From contig NZ_FOXY01000008.1 of assembly GCF_900115865.1 (NCBI RefSeq), forward strand, positions 1 to 64,000: 64,000 nucleotides of DNA. The letters are read 5' to 3'. A program made the translations under genes and the position numbers. Below, in pieces: positions 1-16,347 of the stretch. Source of the stretch: Donghicola eburneus. GTDB lineage: Bacteria > Pseudomonadota > Alphaproteobacteria > Rhodobacterales > Rhodobacteraceae. Every line of letters starts with the position of its first letter. The first letter of the stretch is position 1. The notes beneath the pieces were generated by a model. That model ran no database searches, was not told where the DNA came from, and saw only the letters and a program-made list of their open reading frames with translations.

Positions 1-380
1 GCGTGGCACGTGAACTGACGACCCTCATCGATCGGCGGGGAAAGCCCGGGATGATTGTCAGCGATAATGGGACCGAACTAACTTCTAATGCTATCTTGCG
101 GTGGTGCTCCGAGAACCACATCGAATGGCATTATATCGCGCCGGGAAAGCCGATGCAGAATGGCTTTGTCGAAAGCTTTAATGGGCGAATGCGAGACGAG
201 CTATTGAATGAGACGATGTTCCGCAATCTGGCACACACCCGCGCGGTGATCGCTGCATGGGCCGCCGATTACAATACAGAGCGCCCGCATTCCGCGTTGG
301 ATTACCGCACGCCTGCCGAATATGCCCGAACTTTAAACCACGCAATCGCCAATCGGCGTAAATACCCTTCAGGCTCAAAT
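1..380 (+). mobile_element. IS3-family insertion sequence, right part only
   Basis: The window opens inside an IS3-type element: the left end and orfA lie outside. The recognisable transposase similarity ends near base 340-380. After that the frame continues with sequence I do not recognise as transposase, so the right end is either degraded or its terminal repeat cannot be placed from one end alone. The right boundary given is approximate. Confidence 0.55.
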
Positions 381-527
381 CGCCGCTGGATGAATGTTCA
401 GTGGCAGGTCACTACGACCCCGCAAGCTCTCCCAGCTCTCGTTCATCTCTGTCCGATCCCCAAGGGAATGGATAAGCGCCGTGACGCGTGCGCGATACAT
501 GTCGGAAACACGAAGCGGGAAACGTAA
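3..527 (+). CDS. IS3-family transposase OrfB, C-terminal fragment
   Basis: This is the C-terminal part of a DDE integrase-core transposase; the 5' part lies beyond the window edge. The second catalytic Asp is in SDNGTE (residue 21 of the visible part) and the catalytic Glu in VESFNGR (residue 56), 35 positions apart as in IS3 OrfB proteins. The block with [10 protein letters not shown] and TPAEYA is the usual IS3 C-terminal signature. About 55 residues after TPAEYARTL do not look like transposase and may be read-through into flanking DNA, which suggests loss of the true 3' end. The element sits 40 bases from the end of a convergent LysR gene. Family assignment is firm; whether the copy is active cannot be judged. 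Confidence 0.8.
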
Positions 528-4012: not shown

Positions 4013-5151
4013 TCGGCTGCCTCCACTGCGCGGGCTCCGCCGTATTGGTAGTAGGCTGCGCAGGCCCCTTCGGAGCTGACCATCAACGCGCCAAGGGGCA
4101 TTTCGGGTGTGCAGCCTTTGCCGAACATCGGGCATTGGGTGGGCTTCATCCGGCCGGTCATGACCGCGCCGCATTCGCAGCCCTCGGGTTCCTGAACGGA
4201 CCGCGTGCCAGTGGCGTAACCGATGCCGAACTTCTCTTCGGCATCAAAGGCTTTGTATGTCTCGCGGATGCGCAGACCGGAATGGTCGATTTCCCCGAGG
4301 CCACGCCACTCAAAGCTGGGGCGCTGTTCATAAACATCGTCAATCGCGGCGATGCTGACGGGGTTGCCGTGTTCGGGCACCACGCGGGCGTATTGGTTCT
4401 GCACCACAGCTTTGCCGTCACGGATCTGCTCCAGCACCATCAGTACCGATTGCAGCAGGTCGAGCGGCTCGAACCCCGCCACGACGATGGGCTTGCCGTA
4501 ATCGTCCGCAATAAAATCATAGGGATGCGTGCCAATCACCATGCTCACGTGGCCCGGTCCGACAAAGCCGTCCAGCTTCATGTAGGGGTCATCCAGCAGC
4601 GCCTTGATCGGCGGCGGCACGGTGATGTGGTTGCAGAAGACGGTGAAGTTGGTCAGCCCTTCCCGCGATGCCTGCTGGATCGACAGAGCGGTCGAGGGCG
4701 TGGTCGTCTCGAACCCGAGGCCAAAGAAAATCACCTCCTTGTCGGGGTTCCGGCGGGCCAGTTCCAGCGCGTCCAAGGGCGAGTAGACCATGCGGATATC
4801 CGCGCCGTCCGCCTTGGCCTGAAGCAAGGATTTGCGGGTGCCGGGCACGCGCATCGCATCGCCAAAGGTGGTGAAGATTACGTTGGGCTGTTCGGCCAGT
4901 TGGACGCATTCGTCCACGCGGCTCATGGGTAGAACGCAGACAGGGCAACCGGGGCCGTGGATGAATTCGATCCCCGGATGGGTCAGCTTATCAAGACCAT
5001 AGCGGAAGATCGCGTGGGTGTGGCCGCCGCATATCTCCATGATCCGGACAGGATTTTCTTCGGTCGCGCCGATCTGGTCGCAAACGCGGGCGATAGCATC
5101 CAACGCTGCGCGGGCTGCGATGGGGTCGCGGAATTCGTCAGCGTATTTCAT
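4009..5151 (-). CDS. hypD: Hydrogenase maturation protein HypD
   Basis: HypD is an iron-sulfur scaffold protein that, with HypC, carries the Fe(CN)2CO unit before insertion into the large subunit. The 380-residue product shows EICGGHTHAIFRYG, HGPGCPVCVLP, FGLGFETTTPS and the C-terminal cysteine cluster CECGAVMTGRMKPTQCP, all family signatures. The frame runs open upstream, but the ATG at 5151 overlaps the hypC stop by 4 bases (ATGA) and gives the usual MKYADEFRD start. Cytoplasmic. Translationally coupled to hypC and hypE on either side. Confidence 0.96.
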   Translation of the reverse strand: MKYADEFRDPIAARAALDAIARVCDQIGATEENPVRIMEICGGHTHAIFRYGLDKLTHPGIEFIHGPGCPVCVLPMSRVDECVQLAEQPNVIFTTFGDAMRVPGTRKSLLQAKADGADIRMVYSPLDALELARRNPDKEVIFFGLGFETTTPSTALSIQQASREGLTNFTVFCNHITVPPPIKALLDDPYMKLDGFVGPGHVSMVIGTHPYDFIADDYGKPIVVAGFEPLDLLQSVLMVLEQIRDGKAVVQNQYARVVPEHGNPVSIAAIDDVYEQRPSFEWRGLGEIDHSGLRIRETYKAFDAEEKFGIGYATGTRSVQEPEGCECGAVMTGRMKPTQCPMFGKGCTPEMPLGALMVSSEGACAAYYQYGGARAVEAAE

Positions 5152-5441: not shown

Positions 5442-6917
5442 TTAATCCTCCCTCTCGTCGGCATCGGCATGGGTGTCGATCCCGTAACGTTCAATCTTGG
5501 CGCGCAGGCCGACGCGGGACAGGCCCAACTCGTTGGCGGCGCGGCTCTTGTTCCATTTCAGACGGGTGAGCGTTTCGCGCAGGATGCGCATCTCGATCAC
5601 CTCGATCCGTTCTTTCAGGGTGCCCTCAGTGGTCAGGACCGCGTCGGTGTGCATGTCCGAGTGGGCATCGCGGGGCGCGGCCTGCAGGATGTGACGGCTG
5701 ATCAGTTCCGGCCCAAGCGTGGCATCCTGCGAGAAGATCAGCATTCGGGTCATCTCGTTCTCAAGCTCGCGCTGGTTGCCCGGCCAGTCGTAGTTGCCGA
5801 GGAAGCGCAGGGCGTCGTCAGAAATCCCGTGGACGGGTTTGCCGTGCTTGGCCGCCGCATCGAACAACAGGCGCTGCGCCAGTACCGGCAGATCACCAAG
5901 GCGGCTGCGCAGGGGCGGGATGTGCAGAGCGGTGGGGCCAAGCGCATGATAAAGGTCCCCGCGGAAGCGGCCCTCGCTGACTTCTTGGCGCAGGTCCTTT
6001 TCGCTACCCGACAGAATGCGGATGTCCGACCGGATCATTTCGTACCCGCCAAGGGGGCGGAACGAACCCTCGGTTGCGACACGTAGCAGGGCCAGCTGCA
6101 TACGGGGGCTCAGATCATGGATCCCGCTGATATAGAGCGTCCCACGATCGGCCTTTTGCAAGAGGCCGGTTTTCTTGGAGGCCAGACCAGGCACAGCGCC
6201 GCGACGGGCCCCAAATAGCTCGATCTCCAGAATCTCGTCATCTATCCCAGTTACGTCAATTTCGTAAAAAGGACGATCCGAGCGTAACGACGCATAATGC
6301 ATGGCCCGCGCGATCTGGCCTTTGCCAGTACCAGCCTCGCCCTGCAGCAGCACAGGCACGTCAAAGCTGGCGAACTGGCGGGCCTGTTCGATCACCGCGT
6401 TCAGGGGCGAATTGGCAGAGCGAAGCACATTCTCGAACCCCATGCCTTCGCGCAGGGCTTTGCGCTGATCCTCGACGCTGCTTTCGACGCGGCGGGCCAG
6501 ATAGCGCATTTCCAGCGACATCCGCTCGTGATCGCGGTTCAGGCGGAACAAATCGGTGGCGTTTTTGGCAACCATGAGCAGTTGGTCTGGATGCCAAGGC
6601 TTGGTCAGGAACTGGTAGATTCCCGCGTCATTGATCGCGGAAATCATGTCGTTGGTTTCGGTGTAGCCGGTGATGATGATCCGCACGGTGTCGGGCCAGC
6701 GTTCACGGACCTCGGCCAGAAATTCCACGCCCGATTTGCCCGGCATCCGCTGATCGCAAAAGATCACCTGAATGTCCTGTTCCTGCATGATCGCCAACGC
6801 GGGTTCGGCGCCCGTCGCTGTGTAGCAGTCAAAGTCATCCTCCAGCGCCATGCGCATCGCCGAGAGGCTGTGCTCTTCGTCGTCAACCAGTAGGATAGAG
6901 GGCAAAGGGGCAGTCAT
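5442..6917 (-). CDS. hupR: HupR, NtrC-type response regulator of hydrogenase genes
   Basis: A 491-residue regulator: receiver domain (1-120, Asp12/Asp13, phospho-acceptor Asp55 in FCDQRMPG, Lys106), AAA+-like domain (about 165-400), and a C-terminal Fis-type helix-turn-helix ([20 protein letters not shown]). The AAA+ domain keeps Walker A (GEAGTGKG, 193-200), but the Walker B acidic pair is replaced (TLYISGIHD, 260-268) and the sigma54-contact GAFTGA position reads GAVPGL (240-245). In R. capsulatus HupR is known to activate hupSL with sigma70 RNA polymerase in its unphosphorylated form; these changes fit that. The start is the ATG at 6917, overlapping the hypB stop (TAATG). Its partner kinase HupT is encoded 15 kb away at the other end of the island. 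Confidence 0.93.
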
Positions 6918-7771
6918 TATTCCGCAGCCTCGGGTTTTGCTTTCTGGGCCAGACGGTCGCGCAGCCATTGCAGCCAGACATCCATGCCTTCGCCAGTGCG
7001 GGCGCTGACGCGGATGATCTCGATGCTCGGGTTCACGCGGCGCAGGTTCTCTTCGTAGAGGTCCAGATCCACGTCGCAATAGGGGGCCAGATCGACCTTG
7101 TTCAAGAGCGCCAGACGCGAGGCGGTGAACATGTCGGGGTATTTCAGCGGCTTGTCCTCGCCTTCGGTCACGGACAGGATCGCGACTTTGGCGTCCTCTC
7201 CCAGATCGAAGCCAGCGGGGCAGACAAGGTTACCGACGTTCTCGATGAACAGCACGGACTGGTTGGACAGGTCCAGATGTTCCATCGCGTGGCCGACCAT
7301 GTGACCGTCCAAGTGGCAACCCTTGCCGGTGTTGACCTGCACGGCCTTGGCCCCAGTAGCACGGATGCGGTCGGCGTCGTTGGCAGTCTGCTGGTCGCCT
7401 TCGATCACCGCGAGCGGCTGATCGCCAAGCGCCTCGATGGTTTTGCACAACAAGGTGGTTTTGCCCGAACCAGGCGAGCTGACAAGGTTCAGCGTCAGGA
7501 TTTCGCGGTCGGCCAGAATGGCACGGTTCGCATCGGCATAGCGGTCGTTCTTGGCCAGAATGTCTGTCTCGATCTCGATCAGACGCTCTTGGGTCATACC
7601 AGGCACTTCGACACCAGCGGGGCCTTGGCCAAAGTGGATGTCACCGTGGTGATGATGATGGTGGTGTCCATGGCCGTTGTCATGGTCGTGATGATGATGG
7701 CCCGAGCCGTGATCGTGGTGATGGCTGTGCCCTTCGACACTGCCGGTTCCGCATCCGCAAACATTACACAT
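6917..7771 (-). CDS. hypB: Hydrogenase nickel-incorporation GTPase HypB
   Basis: HypB is the GTPase that drives nickel delivery to the large subunit. The 284-residue protein begins MCNVCGCG (the CxxCxC nickel site, Cys2/5/7), then has a histidine-rich stretch at about residues 15-45, then the G domain with SSPGSGKTT as P-loop, [12 protein letters not shown] as the dimer metal site, and NKVD for guanine. The poly-His segment is of the kind that stores nickel in rhizobial HypB. Overlaps hypA by one base (TGATG) and hupR by one base. Confidence 0.96.
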
Positions 7772-8984: not shown

Positions 8985-9800
8985 TCACTCGGCCTCGGTG
9001 GATGCCATGCCGGCCGAAATAACCTGACGGCGGGTCGGTGCTTCGGGGATGTCGACTTTGTCTTCTTCGGCGGCTTGCGCTTCGGCTTCGGCAGCCTCGA
9101 CGGCGGCGATCTCCTCTTCGCGGGCGGCGCGGATGTCCGCGCTGCGATCCGTTTCGGCGCGGTGTTCTTCTTGGAACAGCGCAACCATCACGGCTTCGGC
9201 GACCTCGACCGCCGAGGCCTGCGATTTGAAGTCCCCCATGGGCGAGAACAGCGAGCACGCTTTGTAGCCGCCGGTCTGCTCGCGGGTGTTGCAGATGAAC
9301 TCGTAATCGCCTGACGGGAAGCGAATGATTTCCTTGGAACCGGCCATCAAGTCGTTCCAATCCTCGCCCTCAGCGGGAAGTTGGATCAGGTTCATGAACC
9401 ACGGGGAAATCAGTACACCCAAGGGGCGTCCTTCGTGCATCCGCCAGCCAACGGCCTGCACGTGCAGCAGTTTGTTCACGATCGGCACGTCACGCATTTT
9501 GGCGTGCCAAACTTCGGTGAAATCGGTCACGAGAGCAGAGGTTTTCGCGGACAGCACCGCAGCTTCTGCCATCGCGTCCGAACCAGGGTCGTGGTTCACC
9601 AGAAACTGCTCTTTGGGCGCGTCGCAGTTCGGGCAGGACCAGTCATCGGGCAGGTGCATAAAGGGCGTGCCCGGCAGAACCTGACGGGTGTCATCGCCCT
9701 CTTCGGGGTCATAGGGGGTCCAGCAGATCTTGCACTCCATGACGGCGCGCGGACTGATCTTGTCGTTGGCTCCCAGATAGCTGCCTTCGAAACCGCTCAT
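8985..9800 (-). CDS. hupJ: HupJ with N-terminal rubredoxin domain (HupI-HupJ fusion)
   Basis: A 271-residue two-domain protein. Residues 20-70 are a rubredoxin with two CxxC iron-binding pairs (CKICWTPYDPEEGDD and CPNCDAP). Residues about 80-215 match the HupJ/HybE hydrogenase assembly-chaperone family (NKLLHVQAVGWRMHEG, LGVLISPWFMNL). The last 50 residues are a charged, Ala/Glu-rich tail. In rhizobia rubredoxin HupI and HupJ are separate proteins. It probably protects or assists the HupS iron-sulfur subunit during assembly. Starts inside the last 4 bases of hupH. Confidence 0.9.
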   Translation of the reverse strand: MSGFEGSYLGANDKISPRAVMECKICWTPYDPEEGDDTRQVLPGTPFMHLPDDWSCPNCDAPKEQFLVNHDPGSDAMAEAAVLSAKTSALVTDFTEVWHAKMRDVPIVNKLLHVQAVGWRMHEGRPLGVLISPWFMNLIQLPAEGEDWNDLMAGSKEIIRFPSGDYEFICNTREQTGGYKACSLFSPMGDFKSQASAVEVAEAVMVALFQEEHRAETDRSADIRAAREEEIAAVEAAEAEAQAAEEDKVDIPEAPTRRQVISAGMASTEAE

Positions 9801-11384: not shown

Positions 11385-11993
11385 TCAGGCGCTTTCGGGA
11401 AAGAAGCGATGGTCGCCGGTGCGGCAGGCGTCTTCTTCGGACGGGCGACCGTCCTCGTAGGCGCTGCGCAGGATCGAGGGGTCCGCCAGATTGCTGGTGT
11501 CGCCTTCGCCCTCAATAGGGTGGATGCCCATTTCTGCCAGCTTTTGCATGGCGATCTCGATGGCGGGGTCGATGCGGGCGGCGACCAGGTCGCGCAGACC
11601 TCCGCCGTAATCCTCCAGCTCGACGGGCTGGCAGCCGATCAGGACCAGACGCTCGGGGCAGTAGCCCATCAGTTGCGCGGTCGCGATGACGTCCTGAAAA
11701 CCGGTCTGGTGTAGGCTCATCTTTTTGGCGCCCATGAAAGAGGGCACGTCCTGATCTTCGACGATTTTCAGAGTGCCTGCGGGCAGACCGTAATCCACTG
11801 CGTCGAACACGATCAGCGCGTCTGCTTCTTCAAGGAAGGGGAGGAGATAGAGACCCTGAGTGCCACCGTCGAGAACTTTTACATTCGGACCAAAAGCCGT
11901 GGTCTGCGCGAGCCGCTCAACACAACGCACACCAAAACCTTCGTCGGCCCACAACACATTACCAATACCCAGAACCAACACACTCGGCGTCAT
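11385..11993 (-). CDS. hupD: Hydrogenase maturation endopeptidase HupD
   Basis: A 202-residue protease that cuts the C-terminal peptide from HupL after nickel insertion. The three nickel-recognition ligands known from E. coli HybD line up as Glu18 (ADEGFG), Asp64 (VFDAVDYG) and His95 (SLHQTG). The N-terminal VLGIGNVLW is family typical. Its substrate HupL has the matching DPCLACSTH site, while HupV lacks it. First gene after the AT-rich 286-base gap that follows hupC, so it probably starts a second transcript or a processed segment. Confidence 0.94.
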   Translation of the reverse strand: MTPSVLVLGIGNVLWADEGFGVRCVERLAQTTAFGPNVKVLDGGTQGLYLLPFLEEADALIVFDAVDYGLPAGTLKIVEDQDVPSFMGAKKMSLHQTGFQDVIATAQLMGYCPERLVLIGCQPVELEDYGGGLRDLVAARIDPAIEIAMQKLAEMGIHPIEGEGDTSNLADPSILRSAYEDGRPSEEDACRTGDHRFFPESA

Positions 11994-12279: not shown

Positions 12280-13056
12280 TCAATCGGGGCGGTCGTCCTT
12301 GAACGTCCGATGACCCGAGATCATGGTCGAGACCATGGACTGGCGGCTCATGATGTCTTCGCGGATCGCCACGTAGATGTGGATGATCACAAAGATCACG
12401 ATGAACCACATGCCGATGTGGTGCAGGCTGTGCAGCACTTGGGTGTTCCCAACCAGCGCGATCAGCCAGCCCATGACCAGATCGGGCAGACTGCCCTGAC
12501 CTGCGCCCTCGGCATACAGCGCCCAACCGGTTGCCAGCATGAAGACAGTCCCCAGCGTGATGAAGAAGAACATGGCGACTTGCGCCAGCGGGTTATGACC
12601 CACGTACTTCTTGGGCTCTTTTTCCATGAACAGGTACCAGCGGATTTCGAACATGATCTCCGCCCACCAATGTTTGTTCCAGAACGGGACATAGAACAGC
12701 TGTTTTGCGTGGTGGTTGCCCGTGATCGCCACGTAGATGCGGGCAAAGAAGCCCACAGTCATCAGCTGGCCCGCCGCAAAGTGCGCAAAGCGGATGTAGC
12801 CCATGACGAATTGGTAGGTCGCCTCGGCAAAGGTCATGGTCGGCAGCGGGCTGGCGATGAACCAGCCAGTGATGCACAGAACCACGATGCACAGAGCATT
12901 GCCCCAGTGCCACAGGCGGACAGGCCATTCGTAGACAAAGACAGAGGTCCGACGACGGATACTATCGATGTCCTCGGCCGTGGCGTCGCCGGTCAGCTGG
13001 GCTGTCGGCAACGGGTTCACGTCCATATTCGGTCGGTGAATTGTATCCTCGGGCAT
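12280..13056 (-). CDS. hupC: Ni/Fe-hydrogenase b-type cytochrome subunit HupC
   Basis: The 258-residue di-heme cytochrome b anchors HupSL on the periplasmic face of the membrane and passes electrons to quinone. Four membrane spans are visible (about residues 50-70, 90-112, 160-182 and 205-230), with heme-ligand histidines in WPVRLWHWGNAL, IRFAHFAAGQ and LHSLHHIGMW. A hydrophilic N-terminal leader of about 35 residues precedes the first conserved block. It follows the small 58-codon gene by 3 bases; that gene's end supplies AAGGAG as ribosome-binding site. Confidence 0.95.
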   Translation of the reverse strand: MPEDTIHRPNMDVNPLPTAQLTGDATAEDIDSIRRRTSVFVYEWPVRLWHWGNALCIVVLCITGWFIASPLPTMTFAEATYQFVMGYIRFAHFAAGQLMTVGFFARIYVAITGNHHAKQLFYVPFWNKHWWAEIMFEIRWYLFMEKEPKKYVGHNPLAQVAMFFFITLGTVFMLATGWALYAEGAGQGSLPDLVMGWLIALVGNTQVLHSLHHIGMWFIVIFVIIHIYVAIREDIMSRQSMVSTMISGHRTFKDDRPD

Positions 13057-13059
13057 GGC

Positions 13060-13236
13060 TCACTCCTTCCGGCGTGCGGTGCGCAGGGTGTACAGGACAC
13101 CCGCCACGGCAATGAGACCAAGACCGTGCATCGGCGACAGCAGCCAGTGCGATGCGCCCGAAAGGGCGGCATCGTGGCCTGTGTGCGCCTGAGCAGCAGT
13201 TGCGCCGAACAGAAGAGCAAGAGTGAAGTATTTCAT
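13060..13236 (-). CDS. Small signal-peptide/membrane protein between hupL and hupC, 58 aa
   Basis: Translation of the 201-base hupL-hupC gap gives an intact 58-residue frame with AGAGGA 8 bases before its ATG. It begins with a clear signal peptide (MKYFTLALLFGATAAQA), continues with HTGHDAALSGASHWLLSP, then one hydrophobic helix (GLGLIAVAGVLYTL) and a basic end (RTARRKE). The HTGHD after the cleavage site and the SPMHGLG before the helix loosely recall the first part of HupE/UreJ nickel permeases, but it is far too short for a permease. It is packed between hupL (15 bases) and hupC (3 bases), so it is almost certainly co-translated. Function unknown; a small subunit or assembly factor of the HupSLC complex is my inference. 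Confidence 0.72.
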   Translation of the reverse strand: MKYFTLALLFGATAAQAHTGHDAALSGASHWLLSPMHGLGLIAVAGVLYTLRTARRKE

Positions 13237-13251
13237 TGTTTGATCCTCTGA

Positions 13252-15042
13252 TTAGCGCACTTTTACAGTGGTCAGTTCGTCACCATCCGGCGACATCACG
13301 TGGGTCGAGCAAGCAAGGCAAGGGTCGAAGCTGTGCAGGGTGCGCAGGATTTCGACGGGCTCGTCGGGACGCTCCATCGGGGTGTTCATCAGCGACGCTT
13401 CGAACGCACCGATGTTGCCTTTGCTGTCGCGGGGCGAGCCGTTCCAAGTGGTGGGAACCACGCACTGGTAGTTCTCGATCCGGCCGTTCTCGATTTTGAC
13501 CCAGTGACCCAAGGCACCGCGGGGCGCTTCGGTCATGCCAACACCTTTGGCCTCTTTGGGCCAGGTCTTGGGATCCCACTTCTCGACGTTTGCCGTGCTC
13601 TCGTCGCCGTTCTTGATGTTCTGGACCAGCTTGTCGAAGAAGTGCTTCTGCAGGCGGCCACAGTACTCGGATTCCAGCGCGCGCGCCGCAGTCCGGCCAA
13701 GGGTCGAGAACAGAGCGTCCACGGGCAGATCCATGGTGCGCAGCAGGCCGTCGACCTGGTTTTTGATGTCCTCGTGACCTTTGGCGTAGCCGACGATGTA
13801 GCGGGCCAGCGGGCCAACTTCCATCGCGTTGCCGCGCCAACGAGGGGCCTTGATCCAGCTGTATTTGCCGGCTTCGTCCAGTTCTTTGATGTTGGTCTTG
13901 GTGCCTTTGGCATTCGGACCCAGCTCGAACTTGGGCTCGGTGCGGCCATCCCACGGGTGCAGACCCATGCCGGGCTCGCCATAGTCGTACCAGCTGTGAT
14001 CTACGAACTCCTGAACCTGCTCGGGGTCGCGCGGGTCAACGTCGTGAACTTCGTTCATGTTGCCGTTGATGATCGCGCCTCGGGGCAGGTGCAGCTGCTC
14101 GGGCGAAAAGTCGTTCGGGTTCTCGGGAATGTCACCGTAGGCCAAGCAAGCCTTGGATGACAGACCGCCACCATAGAGCCAGCTCTTGTAGAAGCCGCCA
14201 ATGGCGATCACGTCGGGCAGGTAAACGTTGCGGTTGAACTCGTTACACTTGTCGATGATCGACGAAACGAGGTTCAGACGCTCCATGTTGATCGCGCCGA
14301 CAGCACCGGTGCTGTGGACGTTGATCGGGCAGGGAACGCCGCCAACCAGCCAGTTCGGGTGGGGGTTCTTGCCGCCAAAGATGGTGTGAACCTTGACGAT
14401 CTCTTTCTGCAGATCCAGCGCTTCGAGATAGTGCGTCGTCGCCATCAGGTCTGCCTCGGGGGGCAGTTTGTAGGCGGGGTTGTCCCAGTAGCCGTTCTTG
14501 AACAGACCGAGCTGGCCCGATTCAACGAACTTCTTCAGACGGTTCTGAACGTCGCGGAAGTAGCCGGGCGAGGACAGCGGGTGGCTGGGGCTAACAGCCT
14601 GCTGCAACTCGCTGGTCGCTTTGGGGTCGGCGCGCAGAGCATTGACGGGGTTCACCCAGTCCAGCGCGTGCAGGTGGTAGAAGTGCACGACGTGGTCGTG
14701 GATCTCCAGGTTCAGCTGCATGATGTTGCGGATCGAGTTCGCGTTGTCGGGGATGGTGACCCCCAGCGCGTCTTCTACCGCACGGACCGAGGTCAGCGCG
14801 TGGGTGCCGGTGCAAACGCCGCAGATGCGCTCGGTAAAGGCCCAAGCGTCACGGGGGTCACGCCCCTTCAGGATCACTTCCAGACCGCGCCACATGGTGC
14901 CGGTGCTGACTGCGTTACGGATCACACCGTTTTCGTCGACGTTCACTTCGCAGCGCATGTGACCTTCGATACGGGTCACGGGGTCTACGACAATGCGGCG
15001 GCCGGTGTTGTCGAGGTCAAAGCCGTTCGGAGTTGCGACCAT
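13252..15042 (-). CDS. hupL: Uptake [NiFe]-hydrogenase large subunit HupL
   Basis: The 596-residue catalytic subunit oxidises H2 at the NiFe site. The N-terminal cysteine motif is [19 protein letters not shown] and the C-terminal one DPCLACSTH. The family site for HupD cleavage follows that His, which would release [15 protein letters not shown] (15 residues). Length is normal for group 1 membrane-bound enzymes. It has no signal of its own and is exported with HupS through Tat. Starts 3 bases after the hupS stop. Confidence 0.97.
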
Positions 15043-15045
15043 GGC

Positions 15046-16131
15046 TTACGCCTCCTCTTTGTCTTGAGTTTTCTTTTGCGCGGCCTTCAGCGCGCTGATC
15101 GCGGCGTGGGCAGCGACACCTGCGCCAACGACACCGGCAGCGGTCAGGCCAACCTTGTCTGCGTTCGCTTCGATGCCGAACTGGGTCAGGTCGGTGACGC
15201 GGTCATAGAAGCTGCCCTGATCCCAGAAGCCGTCTTCCGAACAACCGATACAGCCGTGGCCCGACTGGATCGGGAAGCTGACGCCTTCGTTCCAGCGGAT
15301 GGTGGAACACGCGTTATAGGTGGTCGGGCCTTTGCAGCCCATCTTGTACAGGCAGTAGCCCTTGCGCGCGTGCTCGTCGTCCCACGTCTCGACGAACTGG
15401 CCGGCGTCAAAGTGCGGACGGCGGTAGCATTTGTCGTGGATGCGCTGGCTGTAGAACATCGCGGGGCGGCCCTGACGGTCCAGCTCGGGCAGACGGTCAA
15501 AGGTCAGCATGTAGGTGATCACACCGGTCATAACCTCAGCGATGGGCGGGCAGCCCGGAACCTTGATGATCGGCTTGTCGGTGATGACCTTGTGGACCGG
15601 AGTCGCTTGGGTCGGGTTCGGTTTCGCCGCCTGCACACAGCCATAGGACGCACAGGCGCCCCAGCTGATGATCGCCTTGGCGTCTTTGGCGGCATAGCGC
15701 AGCTTTTCGACAAAGGGCTTGCCGCCGGTGATGCAGAACATGCCATCTTCGTTCAGGGGCGGGTTGCCCTCAACGGCGAGGATGTAGTTGCCCTTGTACT
15801 TCTCGATGGTCTCTTCCAGCGCAGCTTCCGCCGCGTGACCTGCCGCCGCCATCAACGTGTCGTCATAGTCGAGGCTGATCATCGAAAGAACCACATCCTT
15901 GGCCAGCGGGTGCGCGGCGCGGATGAAGGATTCCGAACAACAGGTACACTCCAGACCGTGAACCCAGATCACCGGCGTACGCGGCTTGGTTTCCATGGCG
16001 TGGGCGATTTTGGGTACAAAGCTTGGGCTCAGGCCCAGGGCCGCCGCAGTCAGAGAGCAATACTTCATAAAGCTCCGCCGCGTGATCCCTTGACGCCGCA
16101 TGACGTCGTAGAAGGTTTCGATCTGGCTCAA
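15046..16131 (-). CDS. hupS: Uptake [NiFe]-hydrogenase small subunit HupS (Tat-exported)
   Basis: The 361-residue iron-sulfur subunit carries electrons from the NiFe site to HupC. The Tat signal has the motif ITRRSFMKY (twin Arg18-Arg19) followed by [12 protein letters not shown]. The proximal cluster begins at ECTCCSE, with further cysteine ligands in [17 protein letters not shown] and HGCIGCSE. The C-terminal hydrophobic stretch ([18 protein letters not shown]) is the membrane anchor. No ATG exists at the family start position; TTG at 16131 with GGGGAGGA 5 bases upstream fits best. The next upstream in-frame ATG codons add residues without similarity. Confidence 0.95.
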
Positions 16132-16347
16132 AACTGGTCCTCCCCTAACTGGATCGATTCCGTCGGGATGCAATTGCATACATTCCGTTAGTCTGAATGT
16201 CGGACAGGTGAGGATTTCGATCAAAGCGAATGGGTGCACCGGTGGCACACATTTAAAACGCAGTCAGATCAGTGGCTTGCTGTAACTATTGGGCTTGGTG
16301 CTGCGGGTGCATTCGGATGGAATGCTGCCAGCTTTCCACCCTGTTGG
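16132..16347 (-). promoter_or_regulatory. hupSL promoter region
   Basis: The 216 bases between the hypF stop and the hupS start must hold the hupSL promoter. Visible: palindrome ATGCAATTGCAT (16168-16179, about 37-48 bases before the TTG); an FNR-like site, TTGAT-N4-ATCCT on the minus strand (16211-16224, 8 of 10 consensus bases); and an imperfect palindrome GTGCACCGGTGGCAC (16234-16248). I found no TTG-N5-CAA of the kind reported for HupR in R. capsulatus and no sigma54 -24/-12 element. Assignments are tentative. Confidence 0.45.

Follow-up and report, generated by a model that had tools for sequence, protein, structure and literature searches.

Introduction

The window, that is, the whole 64,000-nucleotide stretch of Donghicola eburneus DNA analysed here, carries hydrogenase genes in which the short gap between hupL and hupC holds a frame of 58 codons. 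A sequence-only reading of the window had taken this frame to encode an uncatalogued membrane protein, possibly a small subunit of HupSLC or a remnant related to HupE/UreJ. The locus raises the question whether the frame is a gene and, if so, what its product might do for the hydrogenase.

Results

The frame between hupL and hupC is a real, conserved gene

The frame, hereafter the mini gene (product: the mini), runs from ATG to TGA on the minus strand, begins 15 nt after the end of hupL, ends 3 nt before the start of hupC, and encodes the protein MKYFTLALLFGATAAQAHTGHDAALSGASHWLLSPMHGLGLIAVAGVLYTLRTARRKE (Table 1). The sequence-only reading had described an intact frame at these distances from its neighbours, and is borne out in both respects, the strand being added here; the ribosome-binding site that it had proposed would correspond to the ribosome-binding-site-like AGAGGA within the 15-nt spacer. 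Judged from its residues, the mini opens with a signal-peptide-like stretch that ends in AQA; HTGHD comes next, and a single predicted membrane helix precedes a basic RRKE end. These are the elements that had been recognised before, and the helix is also predicted in an AlphaFold2 model.

Table 1. Positions of the mini gene, its predicted parts, and neighbouring hup genes in the window.
Feature	Positions	Strand	Basis
Mini gene, 58 aa, DUF6732 match, between hupL and hupC	13060..13236	-	Frame, Pfam, conservation, dN/dS
Predicted signal peptide, residues 1-17, ...ATAAQA	13186..13236	-	Cleavage predicted from sequence; A17 and H18 invariant in 41 aligned minis
HTGH, predicted mature His1 (13183-13185) and His4 (13174-13176)	13174..13185	-	Both in 50/50 minis
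Second His pair, mature His13 (13147-13149) and His20 (13126-13128)	13126..13149	-	i,i+7 spacing
Predicted membrane helix, residues 35-56	13069..13134	-	AlphaFold2 model
hupL-mini spacer with AGAGGA	13237..13251	-	Comparable core in 48/49 relatives
hupL, hydrogenase large subunit	13252..15042	-	PF00374
hupS, hydrogenase small subunit, start approximate	15046..16248	-	PF01058, PF14720
hupC, b-type cytochrome subunit	12280..13056	-	TIGR02125
hupD, maturation protease	11385..11993	-	PF01750

Family searches identified, among the other neighbours, HupF/HypC, HyaE/HupG, HupH, a rubredoxin-HybE fusion, and HypF, and the ORF lists, read by eye, presumably also hold hypA, hypB, hypD, hypE, hupR, hupT, hupU, and hupV. 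No nickel permease, HupE included, was identified among the hup and hyp genes of the window (12 proteins by Pfam, the others by eye).

The mini is 97, 93, and 78% identical to its counterparts in same-genus genomes and 60% identical to that in another genus of the same family. To relate the frame to its surroundings in relatives, we define the interval between hupL and hupC as the slot. In 80 named hup loci (the best 80 of 437 confirmed matches to the window HupL, a sample that is biased to close relatives, includes near-copies of one species, and overlaps the family survey), the slot holds a mini in 49, a full-length HupE/UreJ in 19, and neither in 10, and is unresolved in 2; slot state was reassigned after inspection for L195 and L201 (to full HupE) and L203 (to mini). 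The conserved frame that the sequence-only reading had proposed to look for in related genomes is present in 49 of the 80 loci. In the family survey, 36 of 295 genomes carry HupC above the cut-off, with 21 minis, 9 full-length HupE proteins, 4 slots with neither, and 2 at a contig edge. At class level, 8 of 385 genomes exceed the HupC cut-off, one being the window's own; the others comprise 1 with full HupE, 5 without such a frame, and 1 without hupL in the locus. Paracoccus denitrificans (L201) has full HupE in the slot, and in Rhodobacter capsulatus (L247) the slot is empty. A tblastn search of plasmids with the window mini or with one class-B mini (classes are given below) gave no match at E 1.

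Spacing is conserved together with the frame. In the 49 mini loci, the mini starts 10-21 nt past hupL, and a Shine-Dalgarno core of at least 4 nt lies within 18 nt upstream of the mini in 48; an in-frame start of hupC could be located close to the mini end in 46 loci, within 12 nt in 45 of these and with a 4-nt overlap in 16, distances that were taken to the nearest in-frame hupC start and are therefore biased to small values. Mapped onto a HupL tree, slot state changes at least 14 times; branching of this quick tree is weakly supported (30 of 78 inner branches open), and the well-supported branches alone force 2 changes per group. We conclude that the mini frame is a real, conserved gene and that, since 10 of the 80 loci, including that of Rhodobacter capsulatus, have neither protein in the slot, the mini is not universally required.

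Selection is strongest in the histidine-bearing segment

The sequence-only reading had also expected synonymous and nonsynonymous changes to occur at unequal rates. Eleven disjoint close pairs, hand-chosen from close relatives and including two with near-saturated dS (G001-L169 and L185-L180), bear this out, with a pooled dN/dS of 0.22 (bootstrap 0.17-0.29). By part of the protein, the value is 0.23 for the signal peptide, 0.15, the lowest, for mature residues 1-22, and 0.33 for the remainder. Many of the ratios listed for distant mini pairs are 0.7-1.2, at saturated dS, and were excluded from the estimate; full HupE pairs give a pooled value of 0.40 over many distant pairs, which is not comparable with the mini value. 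We conclude that the minis are under purifying selection.

In 50 of 50 minis (the 49 and that of the window), the predicted mature protein has His1, His4, and, ahead of the membrane helix, a second pair of His residues, and both His codons are in use at the conserved positions; in an overlapping set of 23 minis, His4 is absent in one (L100). The Ala-His junction at the predicted cleavage site is invariant in 41 aligned minis, with His1 partly selected because minis were chosen by the pattern [AGS]x[AG]H near the hupL stop, a pattern that leaves His4 and the second pair free. Mean column identity across these 41 (the 50 minus near-copies L171, L186, L193, L196, L207, L219, L226, L227, and L233) is 33%. 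The second pair is spaced i,i+4 only in 29 of the 50 minis, i,i+7 only in 19, and both ways in 2. In an alignment of HupE (n=9), the H, D, and H of the HupE/UreJ motif H-x5-D-H are invariant at the first membrane segment; the motif is intact in 8 of 50 minis, and the window mini has H-x6-H, with Met replacing the Asp.

The mini matches DUF6732 and is likely akin to HupE

Contrary to its description as uncatalogued, the window mini matches DUF6732 (PF20506) with 31.8 bits (E 1.3e-7), above the curated cut-off of 27 bits. A search of NCBIfam gave no match close to a cut-off, and the HupE/UreJ family PF04955 (cut-off 23 bits) gave none at E 10. At E 0.05, 28 of the 41 minis match DUF6732 and 4 match HupE_UreJ; DUF6732 matches among minis include some below the cut-off (e.g. 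L057, 23.0 bits; L050, 16.7 bits), and of seven minis scanned one at a time, one exceeds the PF04955 cut-off (28.2 bits, profile positions 2-48 of 179). A literature search with the word DUF6732 found no paper, and in titles, abstract starts, and passages returned by our searches we recognised no description of a small hupL-hupC frame.

The window mini and DUF6732 share a similar size, an AHxGH start, HW, and one helix, but differ in setting: each of the 28 strong members sampled, which come from 28 of the 63 genomes above the cut-off, is followed after 0-81 nt by a CbiX-type gene, as found by tblastn with one CbiX identified by Pfam, and the 20 cbiX-linked sequences inspected end in an acidic tail, whereas the mini lies between hupL and hupC. 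Adjacency to cbiX is a trait of the sampled members and is outside the Pfam definition. The window genome has a single PF20506 match, the hup copy, with no cbiX-linked DUF6732 among the matches.

Likeness to HupE by hhalign, signal peptides removed, differs in strength between two classes of minis. Class-A minis (20 distinct, including the window mini), which resemble the N-terminal module of HupE, align with 19 full HupE proteins at E 1.6e-5, with 0 of 100 column shuffles scoring as high, and are likely akin to HupE; class-B minis (28) align at E 0.004, with 0 of 100 shuffles as high, and resemble HupE weakly. Inclusion of signal peptides gives E 5.8e-10, the signal-peptide part being non-specific. 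The cbiX-linked DUF6732 set (12 of 20 sequences) gives no signal against HupE, 19 of 100 shuffles scoring as high, and common descent of that set with HupE is unsupported.

The AlphaFold2 model of the mini has helices at residues 2-16, 21-24, 27-33, and 35-56 (mean pLDDT 79.5, pTM 0.40; mean pLDDT 76, 95, and 90 for residues 31-40, 41-50, and 51-58), and that of full HupE has helices at 2-18, 29-38, and 40-56 plus five more (pLDDT 82.4, pTM 0.75; pLDDT below 50 at residues 13-19 and 21-23). Both models are of single chains and rest on shallow alignments (41 rows for the mini, 9 for HupE). In each, a signal helix is followed by a short helix that bears the first of the two i,i+7 His residues, then by a break and a membrane helix, close to whose start the second of these residues is found. 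A helix-break-helix layout is not specific, being expected of many proteins with a signal peptide and one helix. A sequence search for a solved HupE structure gave no match at E 0.1.

The mini and the HupE/UreJ permease (PF04955) thus have in common the slot, filled by the permease in 19 of 80 loci, a signal peptide, a His-rich mature start, a short helix ahead of the first membrane helix, and His at i,i+7. They differ in that the mini lacks the rest of the permease, with one predicted membrane helix where the HupE model has six long helices beyond the short one, and in that the window mini has Met for Asp and no PF04955 match. Of the earlier proposal of a remnant related to HupE/UreJ, the kinship stands, with strong support from position (the slot shared in 19 of 80 loci) and moderate support from sequence (class A at E 1.6e-5; one of seven minis over the PF04955 cut-off); the notion of a remnant, if it means a gene in decay, does not, since the mini is constrained.

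Candidate importers are present in mini genomes, with no constant partner

At least one of four full-size candidate importer families is encoded elsewhere in the genome in 23 of 23 mini genomes (the 21 family-survey minis and 2 from same-genus genomes, a set that overlaps the 50 minis): CbiM/NikM in 12, NicO in 8, and HupE_UreJ_2 (PF13795) in 21. Searches for these three families covered 37 of the 45 genomes searched for PF04955. Some members of these importer families carry cobalt or act as exporters. In 9 of the 23 mini genomes, a search with PF04955 gave no match at E 0.01, which rules out this permease as an obligate partner of the mini. PF13795 occurs in 21 of 23 mini genomes vs. 3 of 10 full-HupE genomes, and in a larger comparison over 50 of the 80 loci (every one of the 19 full-HupE loci and 31 of the 49 mini loci) in 22 of 31 vs. 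4 of 19 (p 0.001). A sign test on 7 independent pairs, of which 1 lies on well-supported branches, gave p 1; the raw association is not upheld once relatedness is taken into account, and we do not use it as support. We conclude that the mini has no constant partner, PF04955 being missing in 9 of 23 mini genomes and PF13795 in 2 of 23 and in 9 of 31. According to PMC4771312, 90% of Roseobacter genomes carry hupE/ureJ homologues.

Look-alikes occur in urease operons

In the window genome, the ureA-ureB gap contains a 55-aa frame, ...AQAHNDGIHMHPHG..., that overlaps ureB by 4 nt (L108 near 4381-4548; G000:C23 near 368397) and that is signal-peptide-like at its start, His-rich, and has one helix. 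A His-headed one-helix frame precedes ureB in 6 of 30 urease loci (L141, L142, L158, L159, L160, L164), a count made up of the window genome's own locus and 5 of the other 29, and full UreJ is found in 2 of 30 (L146, L157). No ureB start could be located for L150 and L167, and no ureA end for L138, L142, L148, and L155. Two urease frames scanned against Pfam gave no match to DUF6732 or HupE at E 0.01, that of the window genome having no match to any Pfam family at this threshold; for want of such a match we call these frames look-alikes of the mini, with kinship not implied. Because the class-B likeness to HupE is weak, the cbiX-linked set gives a null result, and the urease frames are unmatched, the hup, urease, and cbiX contexts are tied partly by a loose likeness of layout (signal peptide, His, one helix), which could be convergent.

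Discussion

Our preferred reading, to which we give an even chance, is that the mini is a one-helix periplasmic nickel-capture accessory that occupies the slot of HupE and hands metal to a separate importer. The product would be a small protein that is exported and stays anchored in the membrane. Once its signal peptide is cleaved, His1 would form the mature N-terminus in the periplasm; His4 would come next, then a short helix at the edge of the membrane that bears the second His pair, and a single membrane helix would lead to a basic end in the cytoplasm, an N-out orientation with the positive end inside. The layout corresponds to that predicted for the N-terminal module of HupE, a nickel permease, minus the permease body. 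His1, His4, and the pair may hold Ni2+, or a different divalent metal, on the periplasmic side; the captured metal would pass to a separate full-size resident importer, and nickel supply would rise when hydrogenase is made.

A precedent in a related family is provided by secreted domains with an N-terminal His that, according to PMC12537917, bind metal, are fused to HupE/UreJ-2 permeases, and are proposed to feed metal into the fused permease. What that Anglerase-HupE/UreJ-2 system (PF13795, PMC12537917) shares with the mini is an N-terminal His in the periplasm linked to a permease family of the nickel/cobalt type; the difference is that there a folded beta-sandwich domain is fused to the permease (PMC12537917), and the mini has neither.

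The sequence-only reading had raised a small subunit of HupSLC comparable to CydX or CcoQ; as a rival reading, this would be a structural or assembly subunit of the membrane-bound complex, touching HupC or the membrane anchor of HupS. A tiny one-helix protein encoded among the subunits of a membrane redox enzyme is indeed reminiscent of such oxidase subunits, and a constrained single-helix protein, tightly spaced between hupL and hupC in 49 loci and overlapping hupC by 4 nt in 16 of 46, would suit a subunit. To our knowledge, CydX and CcoQ have no cleaved signal peptide or His cluster. The mini, unlike them, shares its slot with a transporter gene; the complex seems able to do without it (10 of 80 loci with neither protein, 19 with full permease); and constraint is strongest not in the helix and tail but in the periplasmic His segment (0.33 vs. 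0.15). Moreover, His-headed one-helix look-alikes occur before ureB and beside cbiX, where a nickel or cobalt supply protein would be expected and a hydrogenase subunit would not. Because the look-alikes accompany urease and cobalt chelatase, we rank the subunit lower and consider it unlikely.

A metal-binding mini need not serve nickel supply: it might sequester copper or zinc, or sense metal for hup expression. The His pattern does not reveal which metal is bound, and copper is among the metals bound by N-terminal-His proteins (PMC12537917), but the operon contexts observed are those of nickel or cobalt, and we regard this role as quite unlikely. That the mini is a HupE relic, a truncated permease stub kept only for hupL-hupC translational coupling, is highly improbable: the common slot, whose state changes 14 times or more on a HupL tree of weak support, and the tight spacing to both neighbours would suit a stub, but selection largely refutes it (dN/dS 0.22, 0.15 in the mature N-terminus), the His pattern is kept in 50 of 50 minis, no HupE remnant follows where an in-frame hupC start lies at most 12 nt from the mini end (45 of 46 loci), and a decaying remnant is ruled out by dN/dS together with His conservation.

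A broader proposal, which we offer tentatively and think rather doubtful, is that in bacteria a full nickel permease gene has repeatedly been swapped for a one-helix 'mini-HupE' keeping only the metal-capturing head, and that equivalent one-helix catchers, used separately in hydrogenase, urease, and cobalt-chelatase operons, are plug-in nickel/cobalt donors for a shared importer. Rhodobacterales hup operons gain a small component that gene finders easily miss; the transporter slot of a hydrogenase operon can hold a one-helix protein that resembles the transporter's head; and DUF6732-like proteins gain from operon context a concrete, testable candidate role, nickel or cobalt capture.

Additional observations

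The DUF6732 loci that adjoin cbiX (L031-L038, L118-L137) offer a context lead for the function of the Pfam family. In Mangrovicoccus ximenensis (L205), the sequence after hupL (11791 on) has a mini-like start whose frame runs into other sequence, with no hupC found after it. In urease locus L138, a frame similar to the look-alikes lies further upstream, and its mature start would be Asp; the ureA-ureB gap of L139, L140, L154, and L165 holds a different frame of ~100-150 aa with a hydrophobic stretch. In the window itself, positions 8985-9800 (minus strand) encode the rubredoxin-HybE fusion as a single protein, with the rubredoxin domain N-terminal and the HybE-type hydrogenase chaperone domain C-terminal; positions 6917-7771 (minus strand) encode what appears by eye to be a HypB-like GTPase whose N-terminal stretch is rich in His and may serve as a nickel store; and at the window edge, positions 3-527 (plus strand), a frame resembles, by eye, the end of an IS3-type transposase.
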